A program made the translations under genes and the position numbers. From an uncultured Mediterraneibacter sp. (GTDB lineage Bacteria > Bacillota > Clostridia > Lachnospirales > Lachnospiraceae): a stretch of DNA of 64,000 nucleotides. Of this stretch, positions 5,085 to 32,200 are shown piece after piece. The stretch covers positions 124,001-188,000 of the forward strand of contig CALWMN010000003.1 in assembly GCA_944381935.1 (NCBI GenBank), read 5' to 3'. Every line of letters starts with the position of its first letter. Positions within the stretch are counted from its first letter, which is position 1. Below the pieces are notes generated by a model. It worked only from the letters and a program-made list of their open reading frames with translations. It was not told where the DNA came from and searched no databases.

Positions 5085-6032
5085 ATGAGCAGCAAAATTA
5101 CTATCATCGGCGCCGGAAGTGTCGGGGCAACAATCGCGTACAAACTTTCTTATGAGGATATCGCATCAGAGATCGTCCTGATCGATATTAACAAAGAAAA
5201 AGTTGAGGGAGAGGTAATGGACATCAAGCAGGGAACCTGCTTTCGGACTCCGATCTCCATTATTGCAGGAGATTATAAGGATGCCAAGGATTCGGACATC
5301 GTCATTATCACATCGGGAATCGCACGCAAGCCGGGTCAGACAAGGATAGAACTGGCACAGACCAATGTCAACATTATCAAGCAGATCACTCCGGAGCTCG
5401 TGAAAGCGGCGCCGAATGCAAAGTATATTATCGTCAGCAATCCAGTGGATATTCTCACATATGTGTTCACAAAGATCTCCGGGCTCCCGGAAAACCAGAT
5501 CATCGGTTCCGGTACGCTCCTGGATACGGCGCGCCTTCGCTCAGGACTTTCCGAGCACTTCAAGATCGCGCAGAAGAATATTCACGCTTACGTATACGGG
5601 GAGCATGGGGATTCTTCCTTCGTTCCGTGGTCAGGGGCAGACATTGCGACAGTGAACATTGACGATTATTGCGAGTCTATGAAGAAATATGGCTCGGATC
5701 TTCACAAGCTGGACAAAGACGCAATGGAAGATTATGTGCACAAATCAGGCGGAGAGGTTATCGCAAAGAAAGGGGCGACATTCTATGCGGTTTCCATCGC
5801 AGTCTGTGAGCTGTGCAATATTGTCCTTGCAGCTTCTGACTCTGTTGCGACTGTTTCCTCTATGATGCATGGCGAGTACGGTATCGAGGATGTATGTCTG
5901 AGCGTTCTGACCCTGGTCGGACCGAACGGCGTCCAGGGCAAGATCCCGATGCGTCTGACAGAGGAAGAAATCGGAAAACTCCGTGCCAGTGCAGATAAGC
6001 TGAAAGATGTAATCCGTCAGCTTGATATCTAG
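5085..6032 (+). CDS. L-lactate/malate dehydrogenase family protein, likely malate-specific
   Basis: NAD-dependent 2-hydroxyacid dehydrogenase of the LDH/MDH superfamily, 315 residues. It shows an N-terminal Rossmann motif GAGSVGATIA, the NAD-binding Asp in LIDINKEK, SNPVDILTYV, the LDTARLR block and the catalytic GEHGDSS histidine. General similarity is to LDH. However, the substrate-specificity loop reads ARKPGQTR, placing Arg81 where LDH has Gln102; an Arg there is the classical malate/oxaloacetate determinant. With fumarase and fumarate reductase downstream, malate dehydrogenase activity is more likely than lactate dehydrogenase. AGAGGAGG precedes the ATG at 5085. Automated pipelines would probably call it ldh. 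Confidence 0.85.
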   Translation: MSSKITIIGAGSVGATIAYKLSYEDIASEIVLIDINKEKVEGEVMDIKQGTCFRTPISIIAGDYKDAKDSDIVIITSGIARKPGQTRIELAQTNVNIIKQITPELVKAAPNAKYIIVSNPVDILTYVFTKISGLPENQIIGSGTLLDTARLRSGLSEHFKIAQKNIHAYVYGEHGDSSFVPWSGADIATVNIDDYCESMKKYGSDLHKLDKDAMEDYVHKSGGEVIAKKGATFYAVSIAVCELCNIVLAASDSVATVSSMMHGEYGIEDVCLSVLTLVGPNGVQGKIPMRLTEEEIGKLRASADKLKDVIRQLDI

Positions 6033-6113: not shown

Positions 6114-6911
6114 ATGAAATACAGCTATTTTCCCGGCTGTACTCTGAAAAATAAGGCACAGGATCTTGATCACTATGCCAGAATTTCCGCAGAAGCTCTG
6201 GGATTTGAACTGGAAGAGATCAGTGAGTGGCAATGCTGCGGCGGTGTATATCCCCTGGGAACCGATGAGATCGCAACAAAGCTTGCCTCCGTCCGCGCAC
6301 TCAATGACGCGAAAGAGAAGGGGCAGGAGCTTGTCACACTCTGTTCCGCCTGCCACCATGTGATCAAACGGGTCAACGACGACATGAAGAATGTCGACGA
6401 TATCCGTACAAGAGCCAACAATTATATGGAACTTGATGCGCCTTACGAGGGAGAGACGAATGTACTCCATTACCTTGAAGTACTTCGCGATGTAGTAGGC
6501 TTTGATGAGCTGAAGAAGAAAGTGACGAATCCTCTTACGGGAAAGAAGATCGGCGCCTATTATGGCTGCCTGCTTCTGCGCCCGGGAAAGCTTATGTCTT
6601 TTGACGACCCGGAGAACCCGAAGATCATAGAGGACTTTATCCGTGCGATCGGAGCTGAACCGGTGATCTACCCGTACCGCAACGAGTGCTGCGGCGGATA
6701 TATCTCACTGAAAGAAGAGGATCTGTCGAAAGAGATGTGCCGTAAGATCGAGGAGAGCGCATCCGGATTTGGGGCAGATATGCTGATTACAGCCTGTCCG
6801 CTTTGTATGTACAACCTGAATAAAAACAACGGCGATAATCTCCCGGTTTATTATTTTACAGAACTTCTTGCAGAGGCACTGGGATTAAAAGAGGAGGTGA
6901 AGGAGCAGTGA
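6114..6911 (+). CDS. hdrB: CoB--CoM heterodisulfide reductase subunit B-like protein
   Basis: HdrB-type subunit, 265 residues, with two CCG domains. The first is C9, the CCGG at about residues 41-44 and CSACHH at about 80; the second is YGCLLLRP, ECCGG (about 188) and CPLCMYN (about 226). In methanogens these motifs bind the two non-cubane [4Fe-4S] clusters that cleave a heterodisulfide. In bacteria lacking CoM/CoB the acceptor is unknown. AAGGAGG precedes the ATG. It overlaps hdrC by four bases (GTGA), so the two are translationally coupled. Confidence 0.9.
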   Translation: MKYSYFPGCTLKNKAQDLDHYARISAEALGFELEEISEWQCCGGVYPLGTDEIATKLASVRALNDAKEKGQELVTLCSACHHVIKRVNDDMKNVDDIRTRANNYMELDAPYEGETNVLHYLEVLRDVVGFDELKKKVTNPLTGKKIGAYYGCLLLRPGKLMSFDDPENPKIIEDFIRAIGAEPVIYPYRNECCGGYISLKEEDLSKEMCRKIEESASGFGADMLITACPLCMYNLNKNNGDNLPVYYFTELLAEALGLKEEVKEQ

Positions 6912-7297
6912 AGACTGAGAAGAACCGCGCAGAGATGATCAGGGAGATCAGTGGTGTGAATCCCCTGAAATGTATGAAATGCGGGAAATGTTCCGCTTCC
7001 TGTCCTTCCTACAATGAAATGGACATCAAACCGCACCAGTTTGTATCCTATGTGATCAATGAGGATATTGAGGCGCTGGCAAATTCAACATCCCTCTGGA
7101 AATGTCTTTCCTGCTTTGCGTGCGTGGAGCGATGCCCCCGCGATGTGAAGCCGGGCAAACTGATCGATGCGGCGAGACAGATTGTTGTGCGTGAGAGGGG
7201 ACAGGATTATCTGACTCCCGATGAGATACCGGAGCTGATCGATCCGGAGACACCGCAGCAGCTGCTCGTAAGTGCGTTCAGAAGATACAGGAGGTGA
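6908..7297 (+). CDS. hdrC: Heterodisulfide reductase subunit C-like 4Fe-4S protein
   Basis: Small electron-transfer subunit, 129 residues, with two [4Fe-4S] motifs: CMKCGKCSASCPS (about residues 22-34) and CLSCFACVERCPRD (about 64-77). It would pass electrons from HdrA to HdrB. The GTG start at 6908 overlaps the hdrB stop. No membrane segment is visible, so this is the soluble HdrC type, not HdrE/HdrD. Confidence 0.9.
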   Translation: MKTEKNRAEMIREISGVNPLKCMKCGKCSASCPSYNEMDIKPHQFVSYVINEDIEALANSTSLWKCLSCFACVERCPRDVKPGKLIDAARQIVVRERGQDYLTPDEIPELIDPETPQQLLVSAFRRYRR

Positions 7298-7303
7298 TAA
7301 AAG

Positions 7304-9292
7304 GTGCAGAGGATTGGAGTATTTGTCTGCCACTGCGGAACGAATATCGCAGCGACGGTAGACGTAAAAAAAGTTACCGAAATGGCGCTCCACGAGCCGG
7401 GAGTCGTGCATGCTGAGGATTATCAGTACATGTGCTCTGAGGCGGGACAGGAGCTGATCCATAAAGCGATCAAAGAGAAACATCTGACAGGACTTGTTGT
7501 CTGTTCCTGTTCTCCGCGTATGCACGAGACGACATTCAGAAATGCGGCAGAGAAGGCGGGCCTGAACCCTTATATGGTAGAGATTGCCAATATCCGTGAG
7601 CATTGTTCCTGGATTCACAAGGATATAGAAGAGGCGACAGAAAAAGCCGTCATCCTGATGCGTGCGGCGATTGCCAAGGTGAACCTGGATGCACCGCTCA
7701 AACCGGGCGAGAGCAAAGTTACCAAAAGAGCGCTTGTCATCGGGGGCGGAATTGCCGGCATCCAGACTGCGCTGGATATCGCCGAGGCGGGATACCCGGT
7801 AGATATCGTAGAGAAGACGCCGAGCATCGGGGGAAGGATGTCACAGCTTGATAAGACATTCCCGACACTGGATTGTTCTTCGTGTATCCTGACGCCGAAG
7901 ATGGGAGAAGTAAACGCGCATCCGAATGTCAATATCTATACATACAGTGAAGTGGAGAGCGTGGCAGGTTTCGTGGGAGATTTCACAGTTGAGATCCGCA
8001 AGAAAGCAAGAAGCGTGGATATGGATAAATGTACGGGCTGCGGCGTCTGCCAGGAGAAATGCCCGAGCAAGAAGACGCCCAGTGAGTTCAACCGCGGATT
8101 AGATACGAGAAGTGCCATCTACACACCATTTGCACAGGCAGTTCCGAATGTTCCGGTCATTGACCGCGATGCATGCATCAAGTTTAAGACAGGAAAATGC
8201 GGCGTCTGCTCCAAGGTGTGCCAGGCAGGCGCCATCGATTACGACCAGGTGGATGAGATTATCACAGAGAAGTACGGCGCAATCGTTGTTGCGACCGGAT
8301 TTGATATGATCAAACTGGATAAATATGATGAGTATGCGTACAGCCAGAGTAAGGATGTCATCACATCTCTTGAACTGGAGCGTATCATGAATGCGGCCGG
8401 ACCGACGGGCGGGCATCTGGAGCGCCTCTCCGACGGGAAAGCGCCGAAGGAAATGGTGTTCATCCAGTGCGTGGGAAGCCGCTGCGCAGACGAACGGGGG
8501 AAGAGCTACTGTTCCAAGGTCTGCTGCATGTATACGGCTAAACATGCGATGCTGATCCGCGACAAGTATCCCGATGTCAATGTAACGGTATTCTACATCG
8601 ATGTCCGTACGCCGGGCAAGAACTTTGATGAGTTCTACCGCCGGGCAGTGGAAGAGTACGGAGTCAACTATATCAAAGGACAGGTGGGAAAGGTTATCCC
8701 GCAGCCGGATGGAAAGCTGCTTGTACAGGGAGCCGACCTTCTGGACAACAAACAGATCTTAAAAGAGGCTGACATGGTCGTCCTCGCGGCAGCCATCGAG
8801 CCGAATCCGGATGTGAGGAAGATTGCAACCATGCTGACGGCAAGTATCGACACGAACAATTTCCTCACAGAGGCACATGCAAAGCTTCGTCCGGTAGAGT
8901 CACCGACAGCAGGTATCTTCCTCTCCGGCGTATGCCAGGGACCGAAGGATATCCCGGAGACAGTTTCCCAGGCAGGAGCCGCGGCGGTCAAAGCCATCGG
9001 ACTGCTTGCGAAAGACAAGCTTTTGACGAATCCATGTACAGCACATTCCGATGAACTGATGTGTAACGGATGTTCCCAGTGCGCGAATGTCTGCCCGTAC
9101 GGGGCGATCTCCTACGAGGATAAAGAGGTGAACGACCACGGGGTACGCGAAGTAAGGCGGCTCGCCGTGGTAAATGACGCGCTCTGCCAGGGATGCGGCG
9201 CATGTACCGTGACATGTCCGTCCGGTGCAATGGACCTGCAGGGATTCTCGAACAGACAGATTCTAGCGGAGGTGGATGCGATATGTCGATAG
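7304..9292 (+). CDS. hdrA: Heterodisulfide reductase subunit A-like FAD/iron-sulfur protein
   Basis: Flavin-containing core of Hdr complexes, 662 residues. It has an N-terminal FVCHCGTNIA segment and a FAD-binding Rossmann motif IGGGIAG at about 146-151. Next comes the HdrA-specific LDCSSCILTPKM region, then a ferredoxin-like pair (CTGCGVCQEKC and CGVCSKVCQAG). A C-terminal ferredoxin domain carries CNGCSQCANVCPYG and CQGCGACTVTCPSG. In methanogens HdrA's FAD bifurcates electrons between ferredoxin and the heterodisulfide. GTG start at 7304 after GGAGG. It overlaps the next gene by 10 bases. Confidence 0.92.
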   Translation: MQRIGVFVCHCGTNIAATVDVKKVTEMALHEPGVVHAEDYQYMCSEAGQELIHKAIKEKHLTGLVVCSCSPRMHETTFRNAAEKAGLNPYMVEIANIREHCSWIHKDIEEATEKAVILMRAAIAKVNLDAPLKPGESKVTKRALVIGGGIAGIQTALDIAEAGYPVDIVEKTPSIGGRMSQLDKTFPTLDCSSCILTPKMGEVNAHPNVNIYTYSEVESVAGFVGDFTVEIRKKARSVDMDKCTGCGVCQEKCPSKKTPSEFNRGLDTRSAIYTPFAQAVPNVPVIDRDACIKFKTGKCGVCSKVCQAGAIDYDQVDEIITEKYGAIVVATGFDMIKLDKYDEYAYSQSKDVITSLELERIMNAAGPTGGHLERLSDGKAPKEMVFIQCVGSRCADERGKSYCSKVCCMYTAKHAMLIRDKYPDVNVTVFYIDVRTPGKNFDEFYRRAVEEYGVNYIKGQVGKVIPQPDGKLLVQGADLLDNKQILKEADMVVLAAAIEPNPDVRKIATMLTASIDTNNFLTEAHAKLRPVESPTAGIFLSGVCQGPKDIPETVSQAGAAAVKAIGLLAKDKLLTNPCTAHSDELMCNGCSQCANVCPYGAISYEDKEVNDHGVREVRRLAVVNDALCQGCGACTVTCPSGAMDLQGFSNRQILAEVDAICR

Positions 9293-9726
9293 AAAAGAAT
9301 GAAGGATTCAGACCAAAGATCGTCGCGTTCTGCTGTAACTGGTGCAGTTATGCGGGCGCAGACCTGGCAGGAAGCAGCCGTATGACCTACTCGGCGGACG
9401 TCAAGATCATCCGCGTCCCATGCTCCTGCCGTGTAAATCCGATGTTTATCCTAAGAGCGTTTGAGCGTGGGGCAGACGGCGTTATCATGTGCGGCTGCCA
9501 TCCGGGTGACTGCCACTATACTTCCGGCAATTTCTACGCAAGAAGACGTATGACGCTCCTGTTCTCCATGCTGGACTATATCGGAGTGGAGAACGGACGT
9601 ACCCGTGTAGAATGGGTATCAGCCGCAGAGGGCGCGAAATTCTCCCAGACTATGCATGAGTTTGTGGACAAGATCACGTCCCTTGGCAAGAATGTAAGAT
9701 TGGAGGATTTAAGATGCAGGAATTAA
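9283..9726 (+). CDS. flxD: MvhD/FlxD-type [2Fe-2S] electron-transfer subunit
   Basis: A 147-residue protein of the methyl-viologen-reducing hydrogenase delta-subunit family. Cysteines in FCCNWCSYAGAD, VPCSCRVNP and MCGCHPGDCHY are the family's [2Fe-2S] ligands. MvhD proteins dock an electron-input module onto HdrA. No hydrogenase subunits are present, so the input here must be the Flx-like proteins downstream. The ATG at 9283 has GGAGGT 9 bases upstream and overlaps the hdrA stop; an upstream ATG in the same frame lies deep inside hdrA and lacks support. Confidence 0.88.
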   Translation: MSIEKNEGFRPKIVAFCCNWCSYAGADLAGSSRMTYSADVKIIRVPCSCRVNPMFILRAFERGADGVIMCGCHPGDCHYTSGNFYARRRMTLLFSMLDYIGVENGRTRVEWVSAAEGAKFSQTMHEFVDKITSLGKNVRLEDLRCRN

Positions 9727-10688
9727 TAAACCGTGCGAAAGAGCTTCTGGCTGACGGAACTGTGGCGAGAGTGCTCGGATGGAAAGCCGGGGACCTGCCT
9801 TATAATCCGGAACCGGCTTACTTTGAGAAAGAAGAAGATTTTGCGGATTTCGTTTATAACGGATTCTGCGGGGCAAATTTAAGCAAATACATGATCGAGG
9901 CTTCCAAGCTGGAAGGAAAGACGCTTGTGTGCCTGAAACCCTGTGATACATACAGCTTCCAGGAACTGATGAAGGAGCATCGCGTAGACCGTGACAAAGC
10001 ATACATCATTGGCGTGGGATGCAAAGGAAAACTGGATATCGAAAAGATCAAAGCAATGGGCATCAAGGGCATCCAGGGCATTTCCGGGGCAGAGATTGAG
10101 GATGCGGCGGAAACCCTGACGATCCAGACGATCTATGGGGAAAAAACCTGCGCATATAAGGACGCTATGCTGGAGAGGTGCCATGTCTGTAAGGGCAAGG
10201 ACCATATGGTCTTTGACGAGACCATAGGAGAGTCCAAAGAGACAAAGGATGCGGACCGCTTTGAGGAAGTGGAGAAGATCGAGGCGATGAGCCCGGAGGA
10301 GAAATTTGCATTCTTCCAGAAAGAGCTGAGCAAATGTATCCGCTGCAATGCCTGCAGGAATGTATGTCCGGCGTGCAGCTGCAGGAAATGTGTGTTTGAC
10401 AGCAACAAATTCGACAGCGCCCAGAAAGCGAATGTGGATTCCTTTGAGGAGAAGATGTTCCACATCATCCGGGCCTTCCATGTGGCAGGAAGATGTACAG
10501 ACTGCGGCGAGTGCAGCAGAGTCTGCCCGCAGGGGATCCCGCTTCATCTGTTCAATCGCAAGTTTATCAAGGATATCGATGAATTATACGGCGAATATCA
10601 GGCTGGCGCGGATATGGAACCGAGAACCCCTCTTACCGATTACCGGTTCGAGGATGCTGAGCCTGGGATTGTGGCAGAAAGGGGATAA
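9714..10688 (+). CDS. flxB: FlxB-like 4Fe-4S dicluster protein
   Basis: Iron-sulfur protein of 324 residues. The N-terminal half resembles the FrhB/FdhB (F420 hydrogenase beta) domain, with CLKPCDTYSF and GVGCKGKLD segments. The C-terminal half carries two [4Fe-4S] motifs, CIRCNACRNVCPACSCRKC (about residues 206-224) and CTDCGECSRVCPQG (about 262-275). In FlxABCD-HdrABC loci of sulfate reducers and other anaerobes a protein of this layout links the flavin subunit with MvhD. It overlaps flxD by 13 bases. The Flx naming rests on order and domain type. Confidence 0.75.
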   Translation: MQELINRAKELLADGTVARVLGWKAGDLPYNPEPAYFEKEEDFADFVYNGFCGANLSKYMIEASKLEGKTLVCLKPCDTYSFQELMKEHRVDRDKAYIIGVGCKGKLDIEKIKAMGIKGIQGISGAEIEDAAETLTIQTIYGEKTCAYKDAMLERCHVCKGKDHMVFDETIGESKETKDADRFEEVEKIEAMSPEEKFAFFQKELSKCIRCNACRNVCPACSCRKCVFDSNKFDSAQKANVDSFEEKMFHIIRAFHVAGRCTDCGECSRVCPQGIPLHLFNRKFIKDIDELYGEYQAGADMEPRTPLTDYRFEDAEPGIVAERG

Positions 10689-10691
10689 TGT

Positions 10692-11735
10692 ATGTATAAG
10701 ATCGCGAAAGAAAATCTGACGGCATTATTTCAGAAGATTGCCGCAGAACAGGAATTATATCTCCCGGTAAAAAATGCCGGACAGGTGAATTTTGGCGTCT
10801 GGACAGAGGACGCGGAGGTTGACCTGGACACACTCAAGAGCGTGAAATCTCCGAAAGATGTCTTTTTCCCGCAGAGCGAGACGCTCTATACATGTATCCG
10901 GGACGGAAAAAAGATCAAGGTAGAGCCTGAGGCGTTAAAGGAACAGAACTTTGTCGTATTCGGCATGAAAGCCTGCGATGTGAAGGGCGTGGAAGTGTTG
11001 GACAAGGTTTTCCTTGTGGACCCGCTGGATACGTTCTATGCGGCGCGCAGGGATCACGGGACTATCGTTGCGCTTGCCTGCCATGAGCCGGAAGAAACCT
11101 GTTTCTGTAAGGTATTCGGCGTGGATGCTGCAGATCCGTCTTCTGCTGACGTGGCAACATGGATCATCGACGGCATGCTGTACTGGAAACCTCTCACTGA
11201 GAAGGGGGAAGCACTGACAGAGTCGGTGAAGGATCTTTTTGAGGAAGACGGCAGTGCGGAAGGGACCATAGAAAAAGAACAGGAGGCGATCCGTGGTATC
11301 GTGGAGAAGCTTCCCTATATGCATCTCTCCCTGGAAGGATGGAACGGGGATGTGCTGATGGAGAAATTCGAGGATCCGCTGTGGGAGGAACTCTACAAGC
11401 CATGTCTTGCGTGCGGGACCTGTACTTTTGTATGTCCTACCTGCCAGTGCTATGATATCAAAGACTATGATACGGGCAGGAACGGTGTTCAGAGGTATCG
11501 CTGCTGGGATTCCTGTATGTACTCTGATTTCACCATGATGGCACACGGGAATAACCGCAAATCTCAGAAAGAGAGGTTCCGTCAGAGGTTCATGCATAAG
11601 CTGGTGTACTATCCGGCGAATAACGAAGGCATGTATTCCTGCGTCGGCTGTGGAAGATGTGTGGAGAAGTGCCCTGCTTCACTGAATATCGTGAAGGTCA
11701 TAAAAGCGTTTCAGAAACAGGGAGGTGAACAGTAA
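10692..11735 (+). CDS. flxC: FlxC-like (AsrA-type) 4Fe-4S protein
   Basis: A 347-residue iron-sulfur protein resembling anaerobic sulfite reductase subunit A and hydrogenase beta proteins. The N-terminal region has GMKACDVKGVEVLDK and ACHEPEETCFCKVFG. The C-terminal region has CLACGTCTFVCPTCQCYD (about residues 238-255) and CVGCGRCVEKCPAS (about 317-330). It sits between flxB and flxA with 3-base and TAATG-type spacing. It probably relays electrons from the NAD(P)H:flavin subunit. No sulfite reductase catalytic subunit is present, which favours Flx over Asr. Confidence 0.78.
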   Translation: MYKIAKENLTALFQKIAAEQELYLPVKNAGQVNFGVWTEDAEVDLDTLKSVKSPKDVFFPQSETLYTCIRDGKKIKVEPEALKEQNFVVFGMKACDVKGVEVLDKVFLVDPLDTFYAARRDHGTIVALACHEPEETCFCKVFGVDAADPSSADVATWIIDGMLYWKPLTEKGEALTESVKDLFEEDGSAEGTIEKEQEAIRGIVEKLPYMHLSLEGWNGDVLMEKFEDPLWEELYKPCLACGTCTFVCPTCQCYDIKDYDTGRNGVQRYRCWDSCMYSDFTMMAHGNNRKSQKERFRQRFMHKLVYYPANNEGMYSCVGCGRCVEKCPASLNIVKVIKAFQKQGGEQ

Positions 11736-12589
11736 TGAGTGAATGTACCTGCCATAAGAATTATACTCTGGATACTCTGATCCCGAAGGTGGGGGTTATC
11801 ACAGACATCAGGGAGGAGACTCCGGACGTCAAGACATTCCGCGTGAACGCTCCGGAGGGCGGCAAGCTTTTCGAGCATATGCCGGGACAGTGTGCGATGC
11901 TCTGCGCACCGGGGATCAGCGAAGGTATGTTTTCGATTACCTCTTCGCCGACGAATAAGGAATATCAGGAATTCAGCATCAAAAAATGCGGTATGCTGAC
12001 CGATTATCTTCATAGCCTAGAGGTGGGCGATGAGATCACAGTCCGCGGGCCTTATGGAAATCATTTCCCGGTAGAAGACAAGCTCAAAGGCAAGGATCTT
12101 CTGTTCATCGCCGGCGGAATCGGACTTGCCCCGCTCCGTTCGGTTATTAATTATGTGCTGGACAACCGCAGTGATTATGGGACAGTGGACATTGTGTACG
12201 GATCCCGTTCCGCTGACGACCTTGTTCAGTTAAAAGAGATCCAGGAGGTATGGATGAACGCGCCGGATGTGCATGTCCATCTGACCATTGACCGAGAGCA
12301 GGAAGGCTGGGACGGCCATGTGGGATTTGTACCGAATTACGTAAAGGAGCTCGGATTCGATGTAAACAAGACAGCCCTGATCTGCGGACCTCCGATCATG
12401 ATCAAGTTTACTCTTTCAGGTCTTGAAGAGCTGGGCTTTTCCAGAGAACAGGTCTACACGACGCTTGAGCTCCGCATGAAATGCGGGATCGGCAAGTGCG
12501 GAAGATGCAACATCGGATCAAAATATGTATGCAAAGACGGCCCGGTATTTCGTTGCGATGAGATCGATGAGATGCCGAATGAATACTAG
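11735..12589 (+). CDS. flxA: FlxA-like FAD/NAD(P)-binding oxidoreductase
   Basis: A 284-residue ferredoxin-NADP reductase-fold protein: FAD-binding barrel (residues 15-100, with FSITSSPTN), NAD(P)-binding domain (IAGGIGLAPLRSV at about 128, CGPPIMI at about 217) and a C-terminal cysteine patch CGIGKCGRCNIG...C typical of the [2Fe-2S] binding of PyrK/AsrB relatives. It is the expected NADH entry point for the Hdr module. The ATG overlaps the flxC stop (TAATG). Confidence 0.82.
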   Translation: MSECTCHKNYTLDTLIPKVGVITDIREETPDVKTFRVNAPEGGKLFEHMPGQCAMLCAPGISEGMFSITSSPTNKEYQEFSIKKCGMLTDYLHSLEVGDEITVRGPYGNHFPVEDKLKGKDLLFIAGGIGLAPLRSVINYVLDNRSDYGTVDIVYGSRSADDLVQLKEIQEVWMNAPDVHVHLTIDREQEGWDGHVGFVPNYVKELGFDVNKTALICGPPIMIKFTLSGLEELGFSREQVYTTLELRMKCGIGKCGRCNIGSKYVCKDGPVFRCDEIDEMPNEY

Positions 12590-12606
12590 GGAAAGGAAGA
12601 AATATC

Positions 12607-13281
12607 ATGGAAAAAATGGTAAATGTATATTTTTTCGGTAAGAAATACAGTGTACCGGCTGACCTGACCATCATGACAGCAATGGAATACGCAGGATATA
12701 CACTGAAAAGAGGATGCGGCTGCCGTCATGGTTTCTGCGGTGCCTGTGCCACGATCTACAGGATCAAAGGGAAAAATGAGCTGAAGACATGCCTTGCCTG
12801 TCAGACACAGGTAGAGGAAGGTATGTATGTGGCAAGCATCCCGTTCTTCCCGACAGACAAGAGAACTTATGATATCAACGAGATCCGTCCGGAGCAGAGA
12901 ATTATGATGGATCTGTATCCGGAGATCTACAGCTGCATCGGCTGTAACGCATGTACAAAGGCGTGTACGCAGGACCTGAATGTCATGCAGTACATCGCAT
13001 ACGCACAGCGCGGCGATTTTGAGAAATGTGCGGAAGAGTCCTTCGACTGTATCGGATGCGGGTGCTGTTCCGTGAGATGTCCGGCAGGAATCTCCCATCC
13101 GATGGTAGGTGTTCTTGCAAGACGTCTGACAGGGAAATATATCGAACCCGAGTCAAAGCATCTTACAAAGCGCGTTGAGGAGATCAACCACGGCGATTAC
13201 GATCAGTTGATCGAGCAGATCATGGAGAAACCGATCACAGAGATGCAGGAACTTTACAACAACAGAGAGATCGAGAAATAA
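12607..13281 (+). CDS. frdB: Fumarate reductase/succinate dehydrogenase iron-sulfur subunit
   Basis: A 224-residue SdhB/FrdB-family protein. The N-terminal half is a [2Fe-2S] domain (CGCRHGFCGACATIY, then CLAC). The C-terminal half holds CIGCNACTKACTQD (about residues 102-115) and CIGCGCCSVRCPAG (about 140-153). The last motif keeps a full CxxCxxC, so it may hold a [4Fe-4S] cluster where the quinone-proximal [3Fe-4S] of membrane enzymes normally sits. Unlike methanogen TfrB it has no fused CCG domain; a stand-alone hdrB is in the same operon. Confidence 0.85.
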   Translation: MEKMVNVYFFGKKYSVPADLTIMTAMEYAGYTLKRGCGCRHGFCGACATIYRIKGKNELKTCLACQTQVEEGMYVASIPFFPTDKRTYDINEIRPEQRIMMDLYPEIYSCIGCNACTKACTQDLNVMQYIAYAQRGDFEKCAEESFDCIGCGCCSVRCPAGISHPMVGVLARRLTGKYIEPESKHLTKRVEEINHGDYDQLIEQIMEKPITEMQELYNNREIEK

Positions 13282-13293
13282 GGAGGGAAGATC

Positions 13294-14895
13294 ATGTTTA
13301 CACCGGAAATGATGGAATCCGTAAAAAAAGTGGAGGCCACCAGAGCATCCCGTCTGGGCGTTGAACCGAGACGTATGTCCGCAGATGAAAAAGATGCCCT
13401 TCTTAAGGCATTTCATCCTGACTATAAAGAGGACGCGTTTGCAGAGATCAAGGTAGGACCGAACAAAGGACAGAAAGCCCCGAAAGAACTGGTGCATCTT
13501 CTGCACTCCAACAGCCGTCTTCTCGCTGATAAGGTTGACATCAATAAAGTTGACTATGACGTTGACGTGCTTATCATCGGAGGGGGCGGAGCAGGGTCTT
13601 CTGCGGCAATCGAGGCACACGAGGCGGGGGCAAACGTCATGATCGTGACAAAGCTGCGCATCGGGGACGCGAATACCATGATGGCAGAGGGTGGAATCCA
13701 GGCTGCGGATAAGGAGAATGACTCTCCGGTACAGCACTACCTGGATGCGTTCGGCGGAGGACATTTTGCCGCAAGGCCTGAACTGTTGAGACGTCTTGTC
13801 ATGGAAGCGCCGGATGCGATCAAATGGCTCAATGAACTGGGTGTCATGTTCGACAAAGATAAGGACGGAAGAATGATCACCACGCATGGCGGCGGAACTT
13901 CCAGAAAGAGGATGCACGCCTGCAAGGATTATTCAGGGGCAGAGATTATGCGTACGCTCCGTGACGAGGTGCTGAACCGCCAGATTCCTGTTGTTGAGTT
14001 TACGGTAGCGGTAGAGCTGATCCGGGACGACAGGGGACAGGTTGCAGGAGCTGTCCTTCAGAATCTGGAGACAGACGACTATCTGGTTGCGAAGGCGAAG
14101 ACGGTCATCATTGCCACAGGCGGTGCGGGACGAATGCATTATCAGGGATTCCCGACATCCAACCACTACGGCGCGACGGCGGACGGACTGATCCTCGGAT
14201 ACCGTATGGGGGCGCCGCTTCTGTACCAGGATACGATTCAGTACCATCCGACAGGAGTCGCGTATCCGTCCCAGATCTTCGGAGCGCTGGTGACAGAGAA
14301 GGTGCGTTCTGTAGGGGCGCAGCTTGTCAATGTGGACGGGGAAGCGTTCATGCATCCGCTGGAGACGCGTGATGTTGCAGCTGCTTCTATTATCCGTGAG
14401 TGTACGGAGAGAGGAAAAGGTGTGACCACACCTCTTGGAAGCGGGGTATGGCTCGACACACCGATGATCGAGGAACTGGGAGGAAAAGGAACGATAGAAA
14501 AGCGTATCCCGGCAATGCTCCGTATGTACATGAACTATGATATCGATATGAGAAAGCTCCCGATCCTTGTTTATCCGACGCTTCATTATCAGAACGGCGG
14601 CCTGGAGATCGGCGGAGACGGCTTTACAAAAGTGGTCGATAACCTGCTTGTGGCAGGAGAGGCAGTCGGAGGAATCCACGGAAGAAACCGTCTGATGGGC
14701 AACTCTCTGCTTGATATTATCGTATTTGGACGAAATGCAGGTAAGGCGGCAGCGGCAAAAGCGAAAAATGTGGAGCTTGGCAACATGAATCTTGACCATG
14801 TAAACGCATATGCAGAAGAGCTCAAAGAGGCTGGGCTGGACACAGGAGATGTCTCACCGCTCCTGCTCCCGAAATATGCAAGGCATGAGAGATAA
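13294..14895 (+). CDS. frdA: Fumarate reductase flavoprotein subunit (soluble type)
   Basis: A 533-residue FAD protein of the FrdA/SdhA/NadB superfamily that would reduce fumarate to succinate. After an unusual N-terminal extension of about 85 residues comes the dinucleotide motif IIGGGGAGSSAA. Then come MAEGG (about 130-134), QYHPTGVAYP, the catalytic-arginine region LETRDVAAAS and the C-terminal FAD-contact stretch VAGEAVGGIHGRNRLMGNSLLD. The residue that is the FAD-bonding His in E. coli FrdA aligns with Asn127, so FAD is probably non-covalent. No frdC/frdD anchor genes accompany it. Confidence 0.88.
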   Translation: MFTPEMMESVKKVEATRASRLGVEPRRMSADEKDALLKAFHPDYKEDAFAEIKVGPNKGQKAPKELVHLLHSNSRLLADKVDINKVDYDVDVLIIGGGGAGSSAAIEAHEAGANVMIVTKLRIGDANTMMAEGGIQAADKENDSPVQHYLDAFGGGHFAARPELLRRLVMEAPDAIKWLNELGVMFDKDKDGRMITTHGGGTSRKRMHACKDYSGAEIMRTLRDEVLNRQIPVVEFTVAVELIRDDRGQVAGAVLQNLETDDYLVAKAKTVIIATGGAGRMHYQGFPTSNHYGATADGLILGYRMGAPLLYQDTIQYHPTGVAYPSQIFGALVTEKVRSVGAQLVNVDGEAFMHPLETRDVAAASIIRECTERGKGVTTPLGSGVWLDTPMIEELGGKGTIEKRIPAMLRMYMNYDIDMRKLPILVYPTLHYQNGGLEIGGDGFTKVVDNLLVAGEAVGGIHGRNRLMGNSLLDIIVFGRNAGKAAAAKAKNVELGNMNLDHVNAYAEELKEAGLDTGDVSPLLLPKYARHER

Positions 14896-14909: not shown

Positions 14910-16067
14910 ATGGATATTTTAGCGTGGTTTCAGGACAGTGTCCTGGGGAATACTCTGATGGTCGTTTTTATGGTAGCATTTATCGGCTATCTTGTGGGAA
15001 GCATTAAGATCAAAGGAGTTGAACTTGGAACAGCGGGCGTCCTCCTGGTTGCCCTGGTGTTCGGGCATTTTGGCTTTGAAGTGCCTGACCTGGTCAGAGA
15101 GCTGGGACTGATCTGTTTCGTGACCTCCGTAGGATTTATTGCGGGGCCGAAGTTCTTCCGCAATTTTAAGATCAATGCGAAGTCATACATTCTGCTCGGG
15201 TTTATCATTATTGCAATAGGAGCGCTGACGACAGCTGCGATCATCGAGATTGCCGGCGTCCCCTCAGACATCACCGTCGGTATGATGTCAGGGGCACTGA
15301 CAAGTACTCCGGGGCTTGCGGCGGCAATCGACGCCACGGGTTCCGCGAATGCATCCGTCGGATACGGGATCGCGTATCCCTTCGGAGTCGTCGGAGTCGT
15401 ACTCTTCGTACAGCTCGTCCCGAAGATCCTGAAAACTGATATGGCGGCGGAACGCGCGCAGTTTGAGGCAGCCCAGAATGTGGGCGATGATGCGCTGAAG
15501 AAAAAAGAGAAGCTGTTCATCGTAGACGAGATGGGATTCTTCCCGTTCGCACTTGCAATCGCGCTTGGGATTATCCTGGCAAAGATCGTGATTCCGCTTC
15601 CGGGCGGTGCTGAGTTTTCCCTTGGCACATCCGGCGGTCCTCTGATCGCCGGACTGATCCTCGGGCACTTCGGCCATGCCGGAAAGATAAGCCTCCACGT
15701 GGAAAAATCTGTGCTGGAGTGTTTAAGGGAGTTCGGCCTTGCGCTGTTCCTGATCGGCGCTGGTGTGGAAGCCGGGGCAGGATTCATTGAGATCCTCAAG
15801 GAGCAGGGGATTGTGCTGTTCCTTTACGGAGCACTTATCACGCTGATCCCGATGTTTGTCGGCTACTTTGTTGCCACGAAGATGATGAAGCTTAGCCTGT
15901 TTAATACGCTTGGCTCTATCTGCGGCGGTATGACAAGTACGCCGGCTCTTGGGACACTGATCCGTGTGACGGGGACGGACGATGTGGCGTCCGCATATGC
16001 GGCAACCTATCCGGTTGCCCTGGTATTTGTTGTGCTGGCATGTCAGTTTATCGGAATCTTCTTATAA
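14910..16067 (+). CDS. AspT/SucE (AAE) family transporter, candidate succinate exporter
   Basis: Integral membrane protein of 385 residues with about 10 hydrophobic segments arranged as a duplication. The family hallmark occurs twice, GALTSTPGLAAAI (about residue 130) and GGMTSTPALGTLI (about 345). There is no TrkA_C domain in the middle; a short charged cytoplasmic stretch (about 177-210) joins the halves. AAE members include the aspartate:alanine exchanger AspT and the succinate exporter SucE. Lying 14 bases after frdA and before fumarase, export of succinate or exchange of a C4-dicarboxylate is the most economical role; this is inferred. Confidence 0.8.
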   Translation: MDILAWFQDSVLGNTLMVVFMVAFIGYLVGSIKIKGVELGTAGVLLVALVFGHFGFEVPDLVRELGLICFVTSVGFIAGPKFFRNFKINAKSYILLGFIIIAIGALTTAAIIEIAGVPSDITVGMMSGALTSTPGLAAAIDATGSANASVGYGIAYPFGVVGVVLFVQLVPKILKTDMAAERAQFEAAQNVGDDALKKKEKLFIVDEMGFFPFALAIALGIILAKIVIPLPGGAEFSLGTSGGPLIAGLILGHFGHAGKISLHVEKSVLECLREFGLALFLIGAGVEAGAGFIEILKEQGIVLFLYGALITLIPMFVGYFVATKMMKLSLFNTLGSICGGMTSTPALGTLIRVTGTDDVASAYAATYPVALVFVVLACQFIGIFL

Positions 16068-16214: not shown

Positions 16215-17057
16215 ATGCGTGAAATCAATGTAAGCGCACTTACAGACGTGATCGAGAGACTCTGTATCGAGGCAAATGAGCATCTCCCGGAAGACGTAAA
16301 ATGCGCGATCCGCGACTGCCGTGCCTGTGAGGACGGAGAGATCGCGAAAGGTGTTCTGGACAACATCATCGAGAATTATGAGATTGCAGACAGTGAGAAC
16401 GTGCCAATCTGCCAGGATACTGGCATGGCATGTGTGTTCCTTGAGATCGGACAGGATGTCCATCTTGTAGGAGGAGATCTTGCAGAGGCAGTGGACGAGG
16501 GTGTCCGCCGCGGATATGGCAAAGGATATCTGCGCAAATCTGTCGTAAAGGACCCGGTCCGCCGCGGAAATACAGGAGATAACACTCCGGCAATGCTCTA
16601 CACGGAGATCGTGCCGGGAGATAAGATCAAGGTTACGGTTGGACCAAAGGGCTTTGGAAGCGAAAATATGAGCCAGATCCGTATGTTCAAGCCATCCGCA
16701 GGTCTTCAGGGTATCAAGGATTTTATTCTTGAGGCCGTAGAGACGGCAGGACCCAACCCGTGCCCGCCTATGGTAGTCGGCGTCGGCATTGGCGGAACCT
16801 TTGACAAGTGTGCGCTCCTTGCAAAGAAAGCACTTATGAGACCGCTGGATTCTTCTAATCCGGATCCGTTCTACGCGGACCTGGAAAAGGAGATGCTGGA
16901 GAAGGTAAACGAGCTTGGGATCGGACCGCAGGGATTCGGCGGCAGGACGACAGCGATCGGGCTTAATATTGAGACGATGCCGACACATATCGCAGGTATG
17001 CCGTGTGCAGTCAATATCAACTGCCATGTGACACGCCACAAATCGGAGGTGATATAA
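16215..17057 (+). CDS. fumA: Fumarate hydratase class I, alpha subunit
   Basis: Alpha subunit (280 residues) of the two-subunit, oxygen-sensitive [4Fe-4S] fumarase family that also includes L-tartrate dehydratase TtdA. Visible family blocks are VPICQDTGMACVFLEIG (about residue 57), GNTGDNTPAMLYTEIVPGD, and VVGVGIGGTFDKCALLAKKAL with a cluster-ligand Cys. ATG at 16215 with GAAAGGGG about 9 bases upstream; an in-frame TTG at 16206 is too close to that site. Context with fumarate reductase and MDH favours fumarase over tartrate dehydratase. Confidence 0.9.
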   Translation: MREINVSALTDVIERLCIEANEHLPEDVKCAIRDCRACEDGEIAKGVLDNIIENYEIADSENVPICQDTGMACVFLEIGQDVHLVGGDLAEAVDEGVRRGYGKGYLRKSVVKDPVRRGNTGDNTPAMLYTEIVPGDKIKVTVGPKGFGSENMSQIRMFKPSAGLQGIKDFILEAVETAGPNPCPPMVVGVGIGGTFDKCALLAKKALMRPLDSSNPDPFYADLEKEMLEKVNELGIGPQGFGGRTTAIGLNIETMPTHIAGMPCAVNINCHVTRHKSEVI

Positions 17058-17615
17058 ATGGCAAGAAAGATTACATTACCGCTCACAGAGGAGCTTGCGA
17101 AAACTCTCCACGCAGGAGACGAGGTGCTCCTGACAGGAACGATCTACACATCACGCGATGCAGGGCACAAGCGTATGTGCGAGGCGCTGGCAAAGGGAGA
17201 GGAGATCCCCTTTGATCCGAAGGATGCGACGATCTATTATGTGGGACCGACCCCGGCAAAGCCGGGACATGTCATCGGGAGCGCAGGTCCGACAACCAGC
17301 GGACGTATGGACGCTTATGCGCCGACCATGATGTCTGTCGGGGCAAGGGGGATGATCGGAAAAGGAGCACGCCTCCCGGAAGTTGTGGAAGCCATGAAGA
17401 AGTACAGCGGCGTTTATTTCGGCGCTATCGGCGGCGCAGGAGCCCTGCTGGCGAAATGCATCAAGAAAGCAGAGCTGATCGCATATGAAGACCTCGGCGC
17501 AGAGGCGTTAAGGAAGCTCTATGTAGAAGATATGCCTCTTGTTGTCATTATTGACAGTGAGGGAAACAACCTCTACGAAGAGGGAAGAAAAGCGTATCTG
17601 GAGTCAAAAAAATAA
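17058..17615 (+). CDS. fumB: Fumarate hydratase class I, beta subunit
   Basis: Beta subunit of the heteromeric class I fumarase, 185 residues. The family's GDEVLLTGTIYTSRDAGHKRM, GPTPAKPGHVIGSAGPTTSGRMD and FGAIGGAGALLAKCIK blocks are present. The ATG directly follows the alpha-subunit stop, so the subunits are coupled. It is the last gene before a strong terminator. Interconverts malate and fumarate with the alpha subunit. Confidence 0.92.
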   Translation: MARKITLPLTEELAKTLHAGDEVLLTGTIYTSRDAGHKRMCEALAKGEEIPFDPKDATIYYVGPTPAKPGHVIGSAGPTTSGRMDAYAPTMMSVGARGMIGKGARLPEVVEAMKKYSGVYFGAIGGAGALLAKCIKKAELIAYEDLGAEALRKLYVEDMPLVVIIDSEGNNLYEEGRKAYLESKK

Positions 17616-29244: not shown

Positions 29245-32200
29245 ATGAACTATCATATGAATTATAACGCGGTTCCCTGCGGATGGGTGGTCGAGGAAAC
29301 AGGATTTGACGCGCGCTGCATGGCAAAGTGCGAATCAATCTTTGCGCAGGGAAATGGATATATGAATATACGGTGCTCCCTGGAGGAGAACTACGTAGGG
29401 CAATGCAGAAATACATTTGTTGCCGGCACGTTTAATAAGGCCATGCCTGATGAAGTAACGGAACTGCCAAACCTCCCGGATATGACGGAGCTTGTGATCG
29501 CGTTGAACGGAGAGCGGTTTTCCATGAGCCAGGGAAAAGTCCACTCCTATTCCAGAAAGCTTGACCTGCGAAATGGAGAGTGCATAAGGGAAGTGGACTG
29601 GGAGAGCCCGGCGGGTATAAGGGCGAAGTTCACCTTTCGGAGATTCGTTTCCCTGAAACGGGAACACGTCGCAGCGTTTATGATGGAAGTGACTCCTGTA
29701 TCCGGGACCTTTGAACTGCTGTTGGAAAGCGGGATCAGCTCCCGGAGCACAAACACGGGTTCCCAGCATTGTCTGGACGGAGAAAAGAGAGTGCTGGACG
29801 GCGACGTCCTCAGATTGTCAACCAGGACAAATCAGTCTGATATACCGATCACGCTGCACTGTATGCACGTCTTTAACAAAAAACAGGCGTTGGAGCTCCC
29901 GGTGATCCAGCGGAGGAGATTCGTCAAACGGTTCCGATTTCTGGTCGAAGACGGGGATACCCTGCGTATGGAAAAATTCATCTGTTATCATACCGGGCGC
30001 GACAAAGCGTTTGAGGAACCGGACAATCCCGAAGGCACTGCGGACAGCCAAGCCGTAAATGATATGGGAGACGCGTGTATCCGCGGCTGCCGGAACGAGA
30101 GCTATGAAAGCCTCCTGGCGGAATCAGAAGAATTGTGGAACAGTTACTGGGGCAGATCGGATGTGCACATCGACAGTCCGAATCCGATGGATCAACTGGG
30201 CGCGCGATTCGCCCTCTATCATCTGAACATTATGGTACAGAGAAGAGACAACCGCGTGGGAATCGGGGCGAAAGGGATGACGGGCGAAGGCTATAAATGC
30301 CATTCTTTCTGGGATACGGAGATGTTTCTTCTTCCCCATTATCTGCTGACCGATCCATTGGCGGCGAGGACGCTGCTCGAGTACCGGTACAGGACCCTCC
30401 CGGGAGCATACCGAAAAGCAGAAGAGAACCATTATGAGGGCGCGATGTTTCCGTGGGAGAGCGCCTGGATGGACGACGGAGAGGTGACTCCTCTCTACGG
30501 GGCGGCGGACGTGATGACCGGGGAGAGCATCCCGATCTATACGGGGATCCGTGAACATCATATTACTGCTGACATCGCATGGGCTGTCATGCTCTATTAC
30601 AATATAACAGAAGACGATGAATTCATGGAACAATATGGCTGTGAGCTCATGGTGGAAACTGCACGGTTCTGGGCCAGCAGGCTGGAGTGGAAAGAGGAGG
30701 CGAGCAGATACGAGATATGCGGCGTGATCGGTCCTGACGAATATAAGGAAGATGTGGACAACAATGCATTTACAAATTATCTGGCGGCGTATAATCTCAG
30801 GGCGGCATCGGATGTGATCGGATCTATGGAGCAGAAATGGCCGTGCGCATGGGAGCGCCTGGGCGGAGAATCCAGGCTGGAAGAGCTGAGGAAGGATTTT
30901 GGGGAAAAGTCGCAGAAGATATACCTGCCCGGGCCGGGGGAGGACGGACTCGTGCCCCAGAACGACGAGTACCTCAGCCTGGAGAAGATCGATCTGACAA
31001 AATATAAGATGCAGCAGGGAGTATCCTCTGTTTATGAGGATTACAGTCCTGATCAGATGAACCGGCTTATGCTGTCAAAGCAGGCGGATCTTGTAATGCT
31101 TCTGAGGATTATGCCGGAACTGTTTGACCAGGAGACGAGACGCCGGAATTTTATCTTCTACGAATCCCGCACGCTGCATGATTCATCGCTGAGCCATGGC
31201 CAGCATTGTGTGCTGGCTGCATGGATGGGAATGGACAAGATGGCGCTGGACATGTACCGCCACGCGGTCGATATTGATCTGGGCCCGAATCCATCCTCCT
31301 CTGACGAGGGGATACACAGCGCTGCCATGGGAGGAATCTGGCAGTGCAATGTGTGTGGGTTTGCCGGACTGAAATGGGGCGCAGGCGAGCTGAATCTTGA
31401 GAATCATCTGCCGCAGCAGTGGAACGCCATGGCATTTAAGATCTGCTGGAAGGGAACATGGATCAATGTCTCGATGGAGAGAGACATGCTGAGGGTGAAG
31501 CATCTGTCCGGACCGGATCTTGAACTGACATTAAACGGGAAGAAATATGTCCTGAGGGTCAACGGTGAAGTTTCGGACGGCAGTGAAAGCTCACATGGAA
31601 AGACCGCAGAAGAGGGCGAAGGGAAGCCTGCGGGCAGATATGCGGGGGTGATATTTGATCTTGACGGAGTTCTGTGCCATACGGATCAGTTCCACTACCG
31701 TGCATGGAAAAAGATCGCGGACGGACTGGGCATACCCTTTGACGAAAAGGTCAACCGGAGGCTCCGCGGCGTGAGCAGGATGGAAAGCCTGGAGATCATA
31801 CTGGAAAAGAGCAGAGAAGAGATACCAGAAGAAAGAAAACAGGAGCTGGCGGAGGAGAAAAACAGATATTACAGGGAGTTCCTCTCTGAGATGACGCCTG
31901 ACGACATGGATCCGGCAGTAAGAGATATGCTCCTTGCCCTAAAGCAAAGAGGCATCCGGATCGCAGTAGGCTCGTCGAGCAAAAATGCGGCGTTTATCCT
32001 GAAACGTCTGGATGCAGAAAATATCTTTGACGCAGTGTGCGATGGCACAATGATCACGCACAGCAAACCTCATCCGGAAGTATTCCTGAAAGCGGCTGAG
32101 AAGCTGGGGGTAAAGCCGGGATCATGCCTTGTGGTGGAAGATGCACCGGCAGGAGTGGAGGCCGCCAGAGCAGCGGGGATGGACTGCGCGGCGATCGGAA

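Follow-up and report, generated by a model that had tools for sequence, protein, structure and literature searches.

A conserved Flx-Hdr-fumarate reductase operon in gut Clostridia: a candidate for NADH-linked, possibly electron-bifurcating fumarate reduction

The window analyzed here is a stretch of 64,000 nucleotides from an uncultured Mediterraneibacter sp. (contig CALWMN010000003.1, positions 124,001 to 188,000). Nine head-to-tail open reading frames (ORFs) on its plus strand, hdrB-hdrC-hdrA-mvhD-flxB-flxC-flxA-frdB-frdA, occupy positions 6114-14895. The content and order of these genes, their conservation, the cofactor ligands of their products, their co-occurrence in other genomes and the lack of a UbiA or DsrC match in the host genome are features of the sequences themselves. 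We infer complex formation, an electron route from HdrB to FrdB, bifurcation and the direction of the reaction. It is quite probable that this operon couples reduced nicotinamide adenine dinucleotide (NADH) to fumarate through the Hdr proteins. The chances are about even for the full bifurcating version, in which NADH would be oxidized at FlxA, HdrA would split the electrons, and HdrC, HdrB, FrdB and FrdA would lead one pair to fumarate.

The nine-gene run and its relatives

An original prediction made from the sequence alone described nine genes in one tight run, mostly overlapping and devoid of a membrane anchor, a hydrogenase and a DsrC gene. All nine ORFs are found at the expected positions and strand, each with a matching family. 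Indeed, Pfam and NCBIfam matches agree with all nine gene names, several NCBIfam scores being below the cut-offs of their models. From hdrB to frdA, the junction gaps are, in order, -4, 6, -10, -13, 3, -1, 17, and 12 nucleotides. The description as mostly overlapping therefore applies to four of the eight junctions, the other four being spaced by 3-17 nucleotides. Neither an anchor nor a hydrogenase nor DsrC is encoded among the nine ORFs, and frdA is followed by a permease gene, with no frdC or frdD. The extent 6114-14895 is exact for the nine-gene run but too short for the whole unit, which also comprises a malate dehydrogenase (MDH)-like gene on the 5' side and genes for an AspT-like permease and for fumarase alpha and beta on the 3' side. 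A promoter and terminator scan gave no convincing boundary within the run (21 promoter-like signals vs. 13.5 expected, 19 terminator-like signals vs. 10.8). The start of mvhD/flxD is most likely 9283 rather than the listed 9193, because the family length is about 147 residues.

Scanning genomes with an FrdB alignment retrieved at least 546 relatives, and the best 80 loci, corresponding to the nearer relatives, were kept. Among these 80, the nine-gene order is intact in all 54 loci that are long enough, the other 26 being shorter but consistent with it; the run is therefore not a chance arrangement. The same order is found in 15/15 long-enough loci of a set of 16 from the class and order, and in 8/8 of a set of 14 from the genus, a few of these loci being duplicates of loci among the best 80. 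The 16-locus set is made of 13 of the 54 class positives and three loci from the genus and order search; another class positive (G326) was also fetched. A run peculiar to this genome, which would have undermined the original prediction, was rejected on the basis of the class, phylum and locus scans. Within the best 80, the six closest FrdB loci (94-96% identity) belong to five Mediterraneibacter and to Clostridium sp. Marseille-P3244, and strain records of Blautia, Dorea, Sporofaciens, and Porcincola also occur.

Co-occurrence was evaluated on genomes of the class and of the phylum. In 391 class genomes, FrdB is present in 54, HdrA in 59 and both in 53 (Fisher p 2e-57, relatedness ignored). 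The two genes lie on one contig within 7 kb in 48 of these 53 genomes and on different contigs in five, and the sole class genome with FrdB but without HdrA is 75% complete. Of 299 phylum genomes, 30 contain FrdB, the host genome being one of them, and HdrA is matched in 26 of the remaining 29. Within the genus, the module is accessory, since, with the host counted, no more than 14 of the 37 genomes of the genus have a true FrdB (E < 1e-100), as do 3 of 24 genomes from other families of the order. One genome, G036, has two FrdB genes (G036:C22:79231-79902 and G036:C38:40-711), 94 and 95% identical to that of the window and both near contig ends; they may reflect a true duplication or a mixed assembly.

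Distances between FrdA sequences parallel those of each of the eight other subunits (correlation 0.89-0.93; 0/500 permutations as high) over 61 loci, that is 61 of 72 rows after removal of near-copies. Without the rearranged loci, the correlation is 0.81-0.87.

The module also exists in variant forms in 24 more distant loci. All nine genes stand together in another order in six of them, frdBA-hdrBCA-mvhD-flxBCA in five and hdrCBA-mvhD-flxBCA-frdBA in one. In four others, matches to HdrA, HdrB, HdrC, a second long HdrA-like protein, MvhD and FlxB are found 5' of frdBA. Finally, two loci carry only hdrC-hdrB-frdB-frdA, which suggests that HdrB is the contact feeding FrdB. In methanogens, the fused TfrB protein is thought to pass electrons from its HdrB part to its FrdB part. 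As a separate observation, in L190, L203, and L204, HdrC, HdrB, HdrA, and a second HdrA-like protein (1070-1098 residues) precede frdBA, and the ORFs after frdBA look like 2-oxoacid oxidoreductase and succinyl-CoA synthetase when their first residues are compared by eye. By the same visual comparison, these three loci look like a variant related to the reductive tricarboxylic acid (rTCA) cycle.

Cofactor sites and genome setting

HdrB (6114-6911) has two CCG domains (PF02754, two stretches), corresponding to two non-cubane cluster sites, and both sets of cysteine ligands are kept in 94/94 rows. It aligns over nearly its whole length with 5odc_B and four other HdrB sequences, and its Protein Data Bank (PDB) matches include 8rvv_B and 7bkb_B. 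HdrC (6908-7297) scores below the cut-offs of the HdrC models that it matches, TIGR03290 among them; it has two [4Fe-4S] motifs, and the eight cysteines of both clusters are kept in 92/92 rows. HdrA (7304-9292), the flavin adenine dinucleotide (FAD)/iron-sulfur subunit and candidate bifurcating flavoprotein, aligns through residues 3-660 of its 662 with HdrA of a solved methanogen complex (5odc_A, E 3.6e-207), and 27 of its 32 cysteines are invariant in 91/91 rows. MvhD, also named FlpD or FlxD (9283-9726; PF02662, E 9e-53), completes HdrA with respect to the HdrA2 model, HdrA filling positions 1-640 with a score below the cut-off and MvhD positions 642-773. Five extra residues are found between C291 and C299 of HdrA (residues 291-299) as compared to methanogen 5odc_A, and both cysteines are present in 91/91 rows.

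The FlxB-like iron-sulfur protein (9714-10688; 4Fe-4S dicluster domains) keeps the cysteines of its CxxC-type motifs (156, 159, 208-226, 261-271) in 100/100 rows. It is followed by a FlxC-like, sulfhydrogenase-beta/AsrA-like iron-sulfur subunit (10692-11735; PF17179; NF040829, E 2.7e-57, below cut-off). Domain content and what we take to be the usage are the basis for naming these two genes flxB and flxC. FlxA (11735-12589) resembles NAD(P)H:flavin iron-sulfur reductases and carries FAD- and NAD-binding domains (PF00175, PF00970, PF10418). Hence flxABCD and hdrABC are co-located here, with the cofactor ligands of HdrA, HdrB, and HdrC intact. NADH as the donor and bifurcation to ferredoxin are predicted from the FlxA domains and from HdrA.

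In FrdB (12607-13281), the Pfam domains and cysteine conservation indicate one [2Fe-2S] and two four-cysteine [4Fe-4S] motifs. Cysteines 39, 44, 47, 65, 110, 113, 116, 120, 148, 151, 154, and 158 are found in 135/135 rows. The second [4Fe-4S] motif, C148-C151-C154-C158, thus has four cysteines in every row, at what we take to be the site of the 3Fe-4S motif in complex II. FrdA (13294-14895; PF00890), a soluble fumarate reductase flavoprotein of 533 residues, aligns from its residue 88 onward with residues 4-429 of the 602 of E. coli FrdA (PDB alignment), E. coli residues 430-602 being without counterpart. The N-terminal extension of about 88 residues is conserved among homologues. H318 and R338 are present in 130/130 rows, H431 and R466 in 129 with one gap, and these four positions align with what are presumably the catalytic residues of E. 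coli Frd. Asn127, present in 130/130 rows, aligns with a His of 1kf6_A and others, which we take to be the FAD-linking residue of complex II. In E. coli Frd, a flavin without the covalent His link reportedly favors fumarate reduction over succinate oxidation. The FrdA counts exclude proteins shorter than 75% of the query or lacking a full ORF, and the 130 FrdA and 135 FrdB rows include some duplicates. The best NCBIfam model for FrdA is TfrA, reached below its cut-off (328 of 718 bits); with the TfrB model, FrdB scores 34 of 385 bits and HdrB 42 bits. The 8-methylmenaquinol:fumarate reductase models are not reached either (SdhA vs. FrdA, 214 of 1100 bits; SdhE vs. HdrB, 140 of 500).

The host genome (3.04 Mb, 99.9% complete) restricts the possible partners of these proteins. 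The UbiA prenyltransferase family has no match in it and is detected in 14/14 control genomes; because of this lack in its own genome, the host probably has no quinone. DsrC likewise has no match in this genome and is detected in 1/14 control genomes (E. coli). Since neither UbiA nor DsrC matched, the quinol and DsrC routes both look closed in this genome. A membrane- or quinone-linked Frd was therefore rejected, given the run without an anchor gene and the genome without UbiA, as was DsrC as a carrier. No second FrdA-like protein was detected in the genome at E 0.001, and no CCG protein besides the HdrB of the operon. A complete rnfCDGEAB set is present and four matches to the [FeFe]-hydrogenase large subunit are found elsewhere in the genome, outside the run, such that reduced ferredoxin has an outlet.

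Proposed electron route and its alternatives

In the reading proposed here, the products of the nine genes would assemble into a single soluble complex, or into two complexes that dock with each other, and would reduce fumarate with NADH independently of quinone. NADH would be oxidized at FlxA, and FlxB, FlxC, and MvhD would pass the electrons to the FAD of HdrA. There, bifurcation would send the low-potential pair to ferredoxin. The high-potential pair would reach FrdB by way of HdrC and then the non-cubane clusters in HdrB, and would continue to the non-covalent FAD of FrdA and to fumarate. The net reaction would be 2 NADH + fumarate + 2 Fd(ox) -> 2 NAD+ + succinate + 2 Fd(red), where Fd stands for ferredoxin. 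Reduced ferredoxin would be reoxidized by Rnf, with ion pumping, or by a hydrogenase. Fumarate would be supplied by phosphoenolpyruvate (PEP) carboxykinase, the MDH-like enzyme and fumarase, and the AspT-like permease would perhaps export succinate. The potential of the fumarate/succinate couple is +33 mV. With -320 mV for NAD and -420 mV for ferredoxin (PMC5861303; this and the other articles cited by accession are represented here by excerpts), the bifurcating net reaction computed from the three potentials amounts to about -49 kJ/mol under standard conditions. As to the original prediction, its claim that fumarate is reduced with NADH, without quinone and with HdrA taking part in the electron path, is upheld indirectly, through the lack of UbiA and DsrC, the conserved ligands, the gene order and the co-occurrence. 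The widest form of the proposal is that a soluble NADH:ferredoxin/fumarate bifurcating reductase, quinone-free and Rnf-coupled, is a major and so far unrecognized energy-conserving branch of gut Clostridia. Fumarate would then be a terminal acceptor in the cytoplasm whose reduction pays for that of ferredoxin, HdrB would have changed from a disulfide reductase to a relay toward FrdB, and FrdBA would have been swapped among Hdr modules. This form should be regarded as tentative, its odds lying a little under even.

Several observations weigh against the proposed coupling. Half of the distant loci (12/24) have frdBA without any Hdr gene in the fetched stretch, less than 2.5 kb upstream being visible in three of them (L171, L191, and L198). 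In seven of the 24, frdBA lies near fumarase, except in L191, where it is near a lactate dehydrogenase (LDH)-like gene instead; in five, frdBA is alone. Moreover, FrdB occurs without an HdrA match (E 1e-60) in three of the 29 distant genomes (G734, G516, and G513), which indicates that FrdBA can have another donor. Conversely, HdrA is matched but FrdB is missing in six class genomes; in G092, 62% complete, this HdrA is 72% identical, and in G082, G097, G124, G129, and G214 identity is 39-47%. The correlated subunit distances are evidence of inheritance as a unit and not of a complex, since linked genes are co-inherited. HdrB retains both disulfide-reducing cluster sites, and therefore a thiol or disulfide substrate is possible for it. 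It should also be noted that HdrABC genes by themselves are no proof of bifurcation (a caveat expressed in PMC5861303), and no biochemistry of such a complex was found in the literature.

An FrdA tree of 66 rows, from which near-copies of canonical rows were removed and in which long rows are placed unsurely, adds to this picture. Its group of Hdr-less loci with fumarase takes in L191, which has the LDH-like gene and no fumarase in its stretch. The FrdA sequences of the five frdBA-only loci are on long branches: 1.54 for L206, 1.03 for L202 and a stem of 1.13 for the other three, as compared to a median end branch of 0.19. Two of them, L202 and L206, branch inside the canonical FrdA clade, which again counts against the proposed coupling. 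Where Hdr is lacking, FrdA may be under another constraint, hence the long branches, but the number of loci, five, is small. L202, L206, L171, L172, and L210 show neither an Hdr nor a fumarase match in their stretch, yet the FrdA active-site residues checked are kept, possibly for another donor or substrate.

These data raise the question of whether Flx-Hdr and Frd are two separate enzymes that are merely co-transcribed, the former with another acceptor and the latter with another donor. The Hdr-less loci, the three distant genomes without HdrA and the position of L202 and L206 in the tree favor this idea. Nevertheless, 53 class genomes share FrdB (54 positives) and HdrA (59 positives), every locus of sufficient length in the three near sets (54, 15, and 8 loci) preserves the order, hdrC-hdrB-frdB-frdA clusters exist, and the five FrdA sequences encoded without Hdr are on long branches. 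Two separate enzymes are thus quite improbable. A different question is whether HdrA bifurcates at all. Flx-Hdr-Frd could be a plain NADH:fumarate reductase for NADH disposal, with HdrA sending all electrons to HdrB and FrdB. The drop in potential from NADH to fumarate is large, so that electrons would flow without any coupling, and an FrdA that is soluble and has Asn in place of the FAD-linking His presumably suits one-way fumarate reduction. However, a plain conduit would hardly need such a conserved HdrA flavoprotein, with 27 of 32 cysteines kept in 91/91 rows and an alignment over residues 3-660 with HdrA of a bifurcating complex, and is unlikely for this reason; Rnf is moreover present as a user of ferredoxin.

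Similarly unlikely is an indirect route, in which Flx-Hdr would reduce a small-molecule or protein disulfide and FrdBA, alone or with HdrBC, would act as a thiol:fumarate reductase. Both non-cubane sites of HdrB are kept in 94/94 rows and TfrA is the best-scoring model for FrdA, which agree with such a carrier. In TfrB, however, thiols are oxidized at the HdrB-like part, as far as we are aware, and the operon HdrB is the only CCG protein found in the genome, so that one HdrB would have to do both jobs. The example of Desulfovibrio, where DsrC is said to interact with Flx-Hdr (PMC10504309), also favors a carrier, but DsrC has no match in the present genome. Finally, the system might oxidize succinate to fumarate and reduce NAD+ at the expense of reduced ferredoxin (confurcation), or serve in the rTCA cycle. 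Loss of the FAD-linking His, if E. coli Frd is presumed to be a guide, disfavors succinate oxidation, and the neighbors here are MDH-like, fumarase, and PEP carboxykinase genes. On the other hand, some distant loci seem, by eye and from first residues, to pair frdBA with korAB- and sucCD-like genes, and the cluster of tubeworm symbionts belongs to the rTCA cycle (PMC6315080). On balance, the reverse direction appears very unlikely.

Related systems and neighboring genes

The FlxABCD-HdrABC system of Desulfovibrio vulgaris is reportedly the subject of studies by Ramos in 2015 and Ferreira in 2023. It has the same subunit set as here and is said to couple NADH to Hdr (PMC10504309). Its partner is DsrC according to the same source, whereas here DsrC has no match and FrdBA is encoded in the operon instead. 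In Moorella thermoacetica MetFV-HdrABC-MvhD, as excerpted, HdrABC-MvhD also feeds a metabolic oxidoreductase with NADH as donor, but the terminal enzyme is methylene-tetrahydrofolate reductase and not fumarate reductase (PMC5861303). Closer to the present case, tubeworm symbionts and Thioflavicoccus have tfrAB interspersed with flxABCD-hdrABC and korABCD, and direct transfer to TfrAB was proposed (PMC6315080, PMC11636981). There, from what the excerpts convey, tfrAB belongs to a reductive TCA cluster in autotrophs, whereas here the genes form a succinate branch beside MDH-like and fumarase genes.

Methanogen TfrAB resembles the present enzyme in that TfrA is the best NCBIfam model for FrdA and that FrdB is paired with an HdrB part. 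It differs in that TfrB is one fused chain, whereas FrdB and HdrB are separate here and accompanied by HdrA, HdrC, and Flx, with scores below the TfrA and TfrB cut-offs. Complex II (FrdABCD) shares the FrdA catalytic domain and the FrdB-like cluster chain. Unlike complex II, the present system lacks an anchor and the FAD-linking His, has four cysteines at the 3Fe-4S site and shows no counterpart of E. coli FrdA 430-602, and UbiA has no match in the genome.

The original prediction also stated that no characterized bacterial complex of this composition was known. This holds for the biochemistry found, but the operon type and the hypothesis of a bifurcating fumarate reductase are already in print for the succinate operon of Pseudoclostridium thermosuccinogenes (PMC7282089, citing a 2019 preprint), in addition to the related proposal for the symbionts (PMC6315080, PMC11636981). 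According to the excerpt of PMC7282089, CO2 limitation raised that operon about 4-fold, although significance was not reached for all subunits. In an earlier study mentioned therein, 85% H2 nearly abolished succinate formation, in which the authors see a fit with the model; they call an opposite effect of Na2S confusing. By its locus tags, the P. thermosuccinogenes operon likewise has fumarate hydratase, seven Flx-Hdr genes, two fumarate reductase genes and a possible succinate transporter. Fumarase precedes the Flx-Hdr genes there and follows the permease here, and the MDH-like gene 5' of hdrB sets the present operon apart, the comparison being of gene content only. Genetic tools exist for P. 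thermosuccinogenes (PMC9044749).

Neither the hypothesis nor this type of operon is therefore new. The present analysis adds that HdrA and FrdB are paired almost exclusively in the class sample, that the module has variants and that it is spread through gut Clostridia, along with the evidence from the residues; no earlier report of such an operon in gut bacteria was found from titles and the beginnings of abstracts, which is weak evidence of absence. If the proposed coupling is true, gut and rumen Clostridia that have the operon and no quinone would gain energy when they reduce fumarate, by way of ferredoxin and Rnf, and their succinate yield, H2 sensitivity, and ATP gain would have to be reckoned differently. 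Fumarate would also join the acceptors of HdrA-type electron bifurcation. The wide spread of the operon, including strains of Blautia, Dorea, Sporofaciens, and Porcincola, makes the published hypothesis directly testable.

The genes around the run, all on the plus strand, outline a route to fumarate. Upstream, a gene for an LDH-family 2-hydroxyacid dehydrogenase (5085-6032; ORF listed from 5046) ends 81 nucleotides 5' of hdrB. Against NCBIfam, it passes two L-LDH cut-offs (344 of 339 and 341 of 304 bits) and misses that of an MDH subfamily (275 of 283). Its motif is ARKPG, with Arg at the specificity position, where two PDB LDH chains have Gln; this Arg is found in 31/32 extractable homologues. 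Arg at this position presumably denotes malate dehydrogenase, but 1y6j, deposited as LDH, likewise has Arg. On the basis of this residue, the gene product is a candidate MDH. On the 3' side, the gene of an AspT/YidE/YbjL-family permease (14910-16067; PF06826, E 8e-77; TIGR01625 over cut-off) starts 14 nucleotides after frdA. From gene context, succinate or another dicarboxylate can be guessed as the substrate of this candidate transporter. Genes for fumarase alpha (16215-17057, ORF listed from 16206; NF004885 over cut-off) and fumarase beta (17058-17615; NF005310, an Fe-S-containing hydro-lyase model, and TIGR00723, both over cut-off) come next.

Considering the long-enough loci among the best 80 of at least 546, an LDH/MDH-like match is found upstream in 40/53 (tblastn matches of 34-85% identity, three being at 34-36%), and fumarase and AspT-like matches are found downstream in 31/45 and 29/45, respectively. 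An ATP-type PEP carboxykinase gene (G000:C3:119580-121184, or L234:2581-4185) ends 2,816 bases before the window, about 9 kb 5' of hdrB. Unrelated genes lie between it and hdrB, YihY-like and pheS from matches, pheT and queA by eye. The PEP-to-succinate genes are contained in the span of about 22 kb from PEP carboxykinase to fumarase beta.

Two other features of the window were observed. At 29245-32274, a glycoside hydrolase family 65 protein is fused with a HAD-type hydrolase in a single chain of 1009 residues. Beyond the succinate operon, the region at about 35000-56000 contains cobalamin-synthesis genes, CbiQ, CbiD, and a CobQ-like amidotransferase being identified from Pfam and others by eye.

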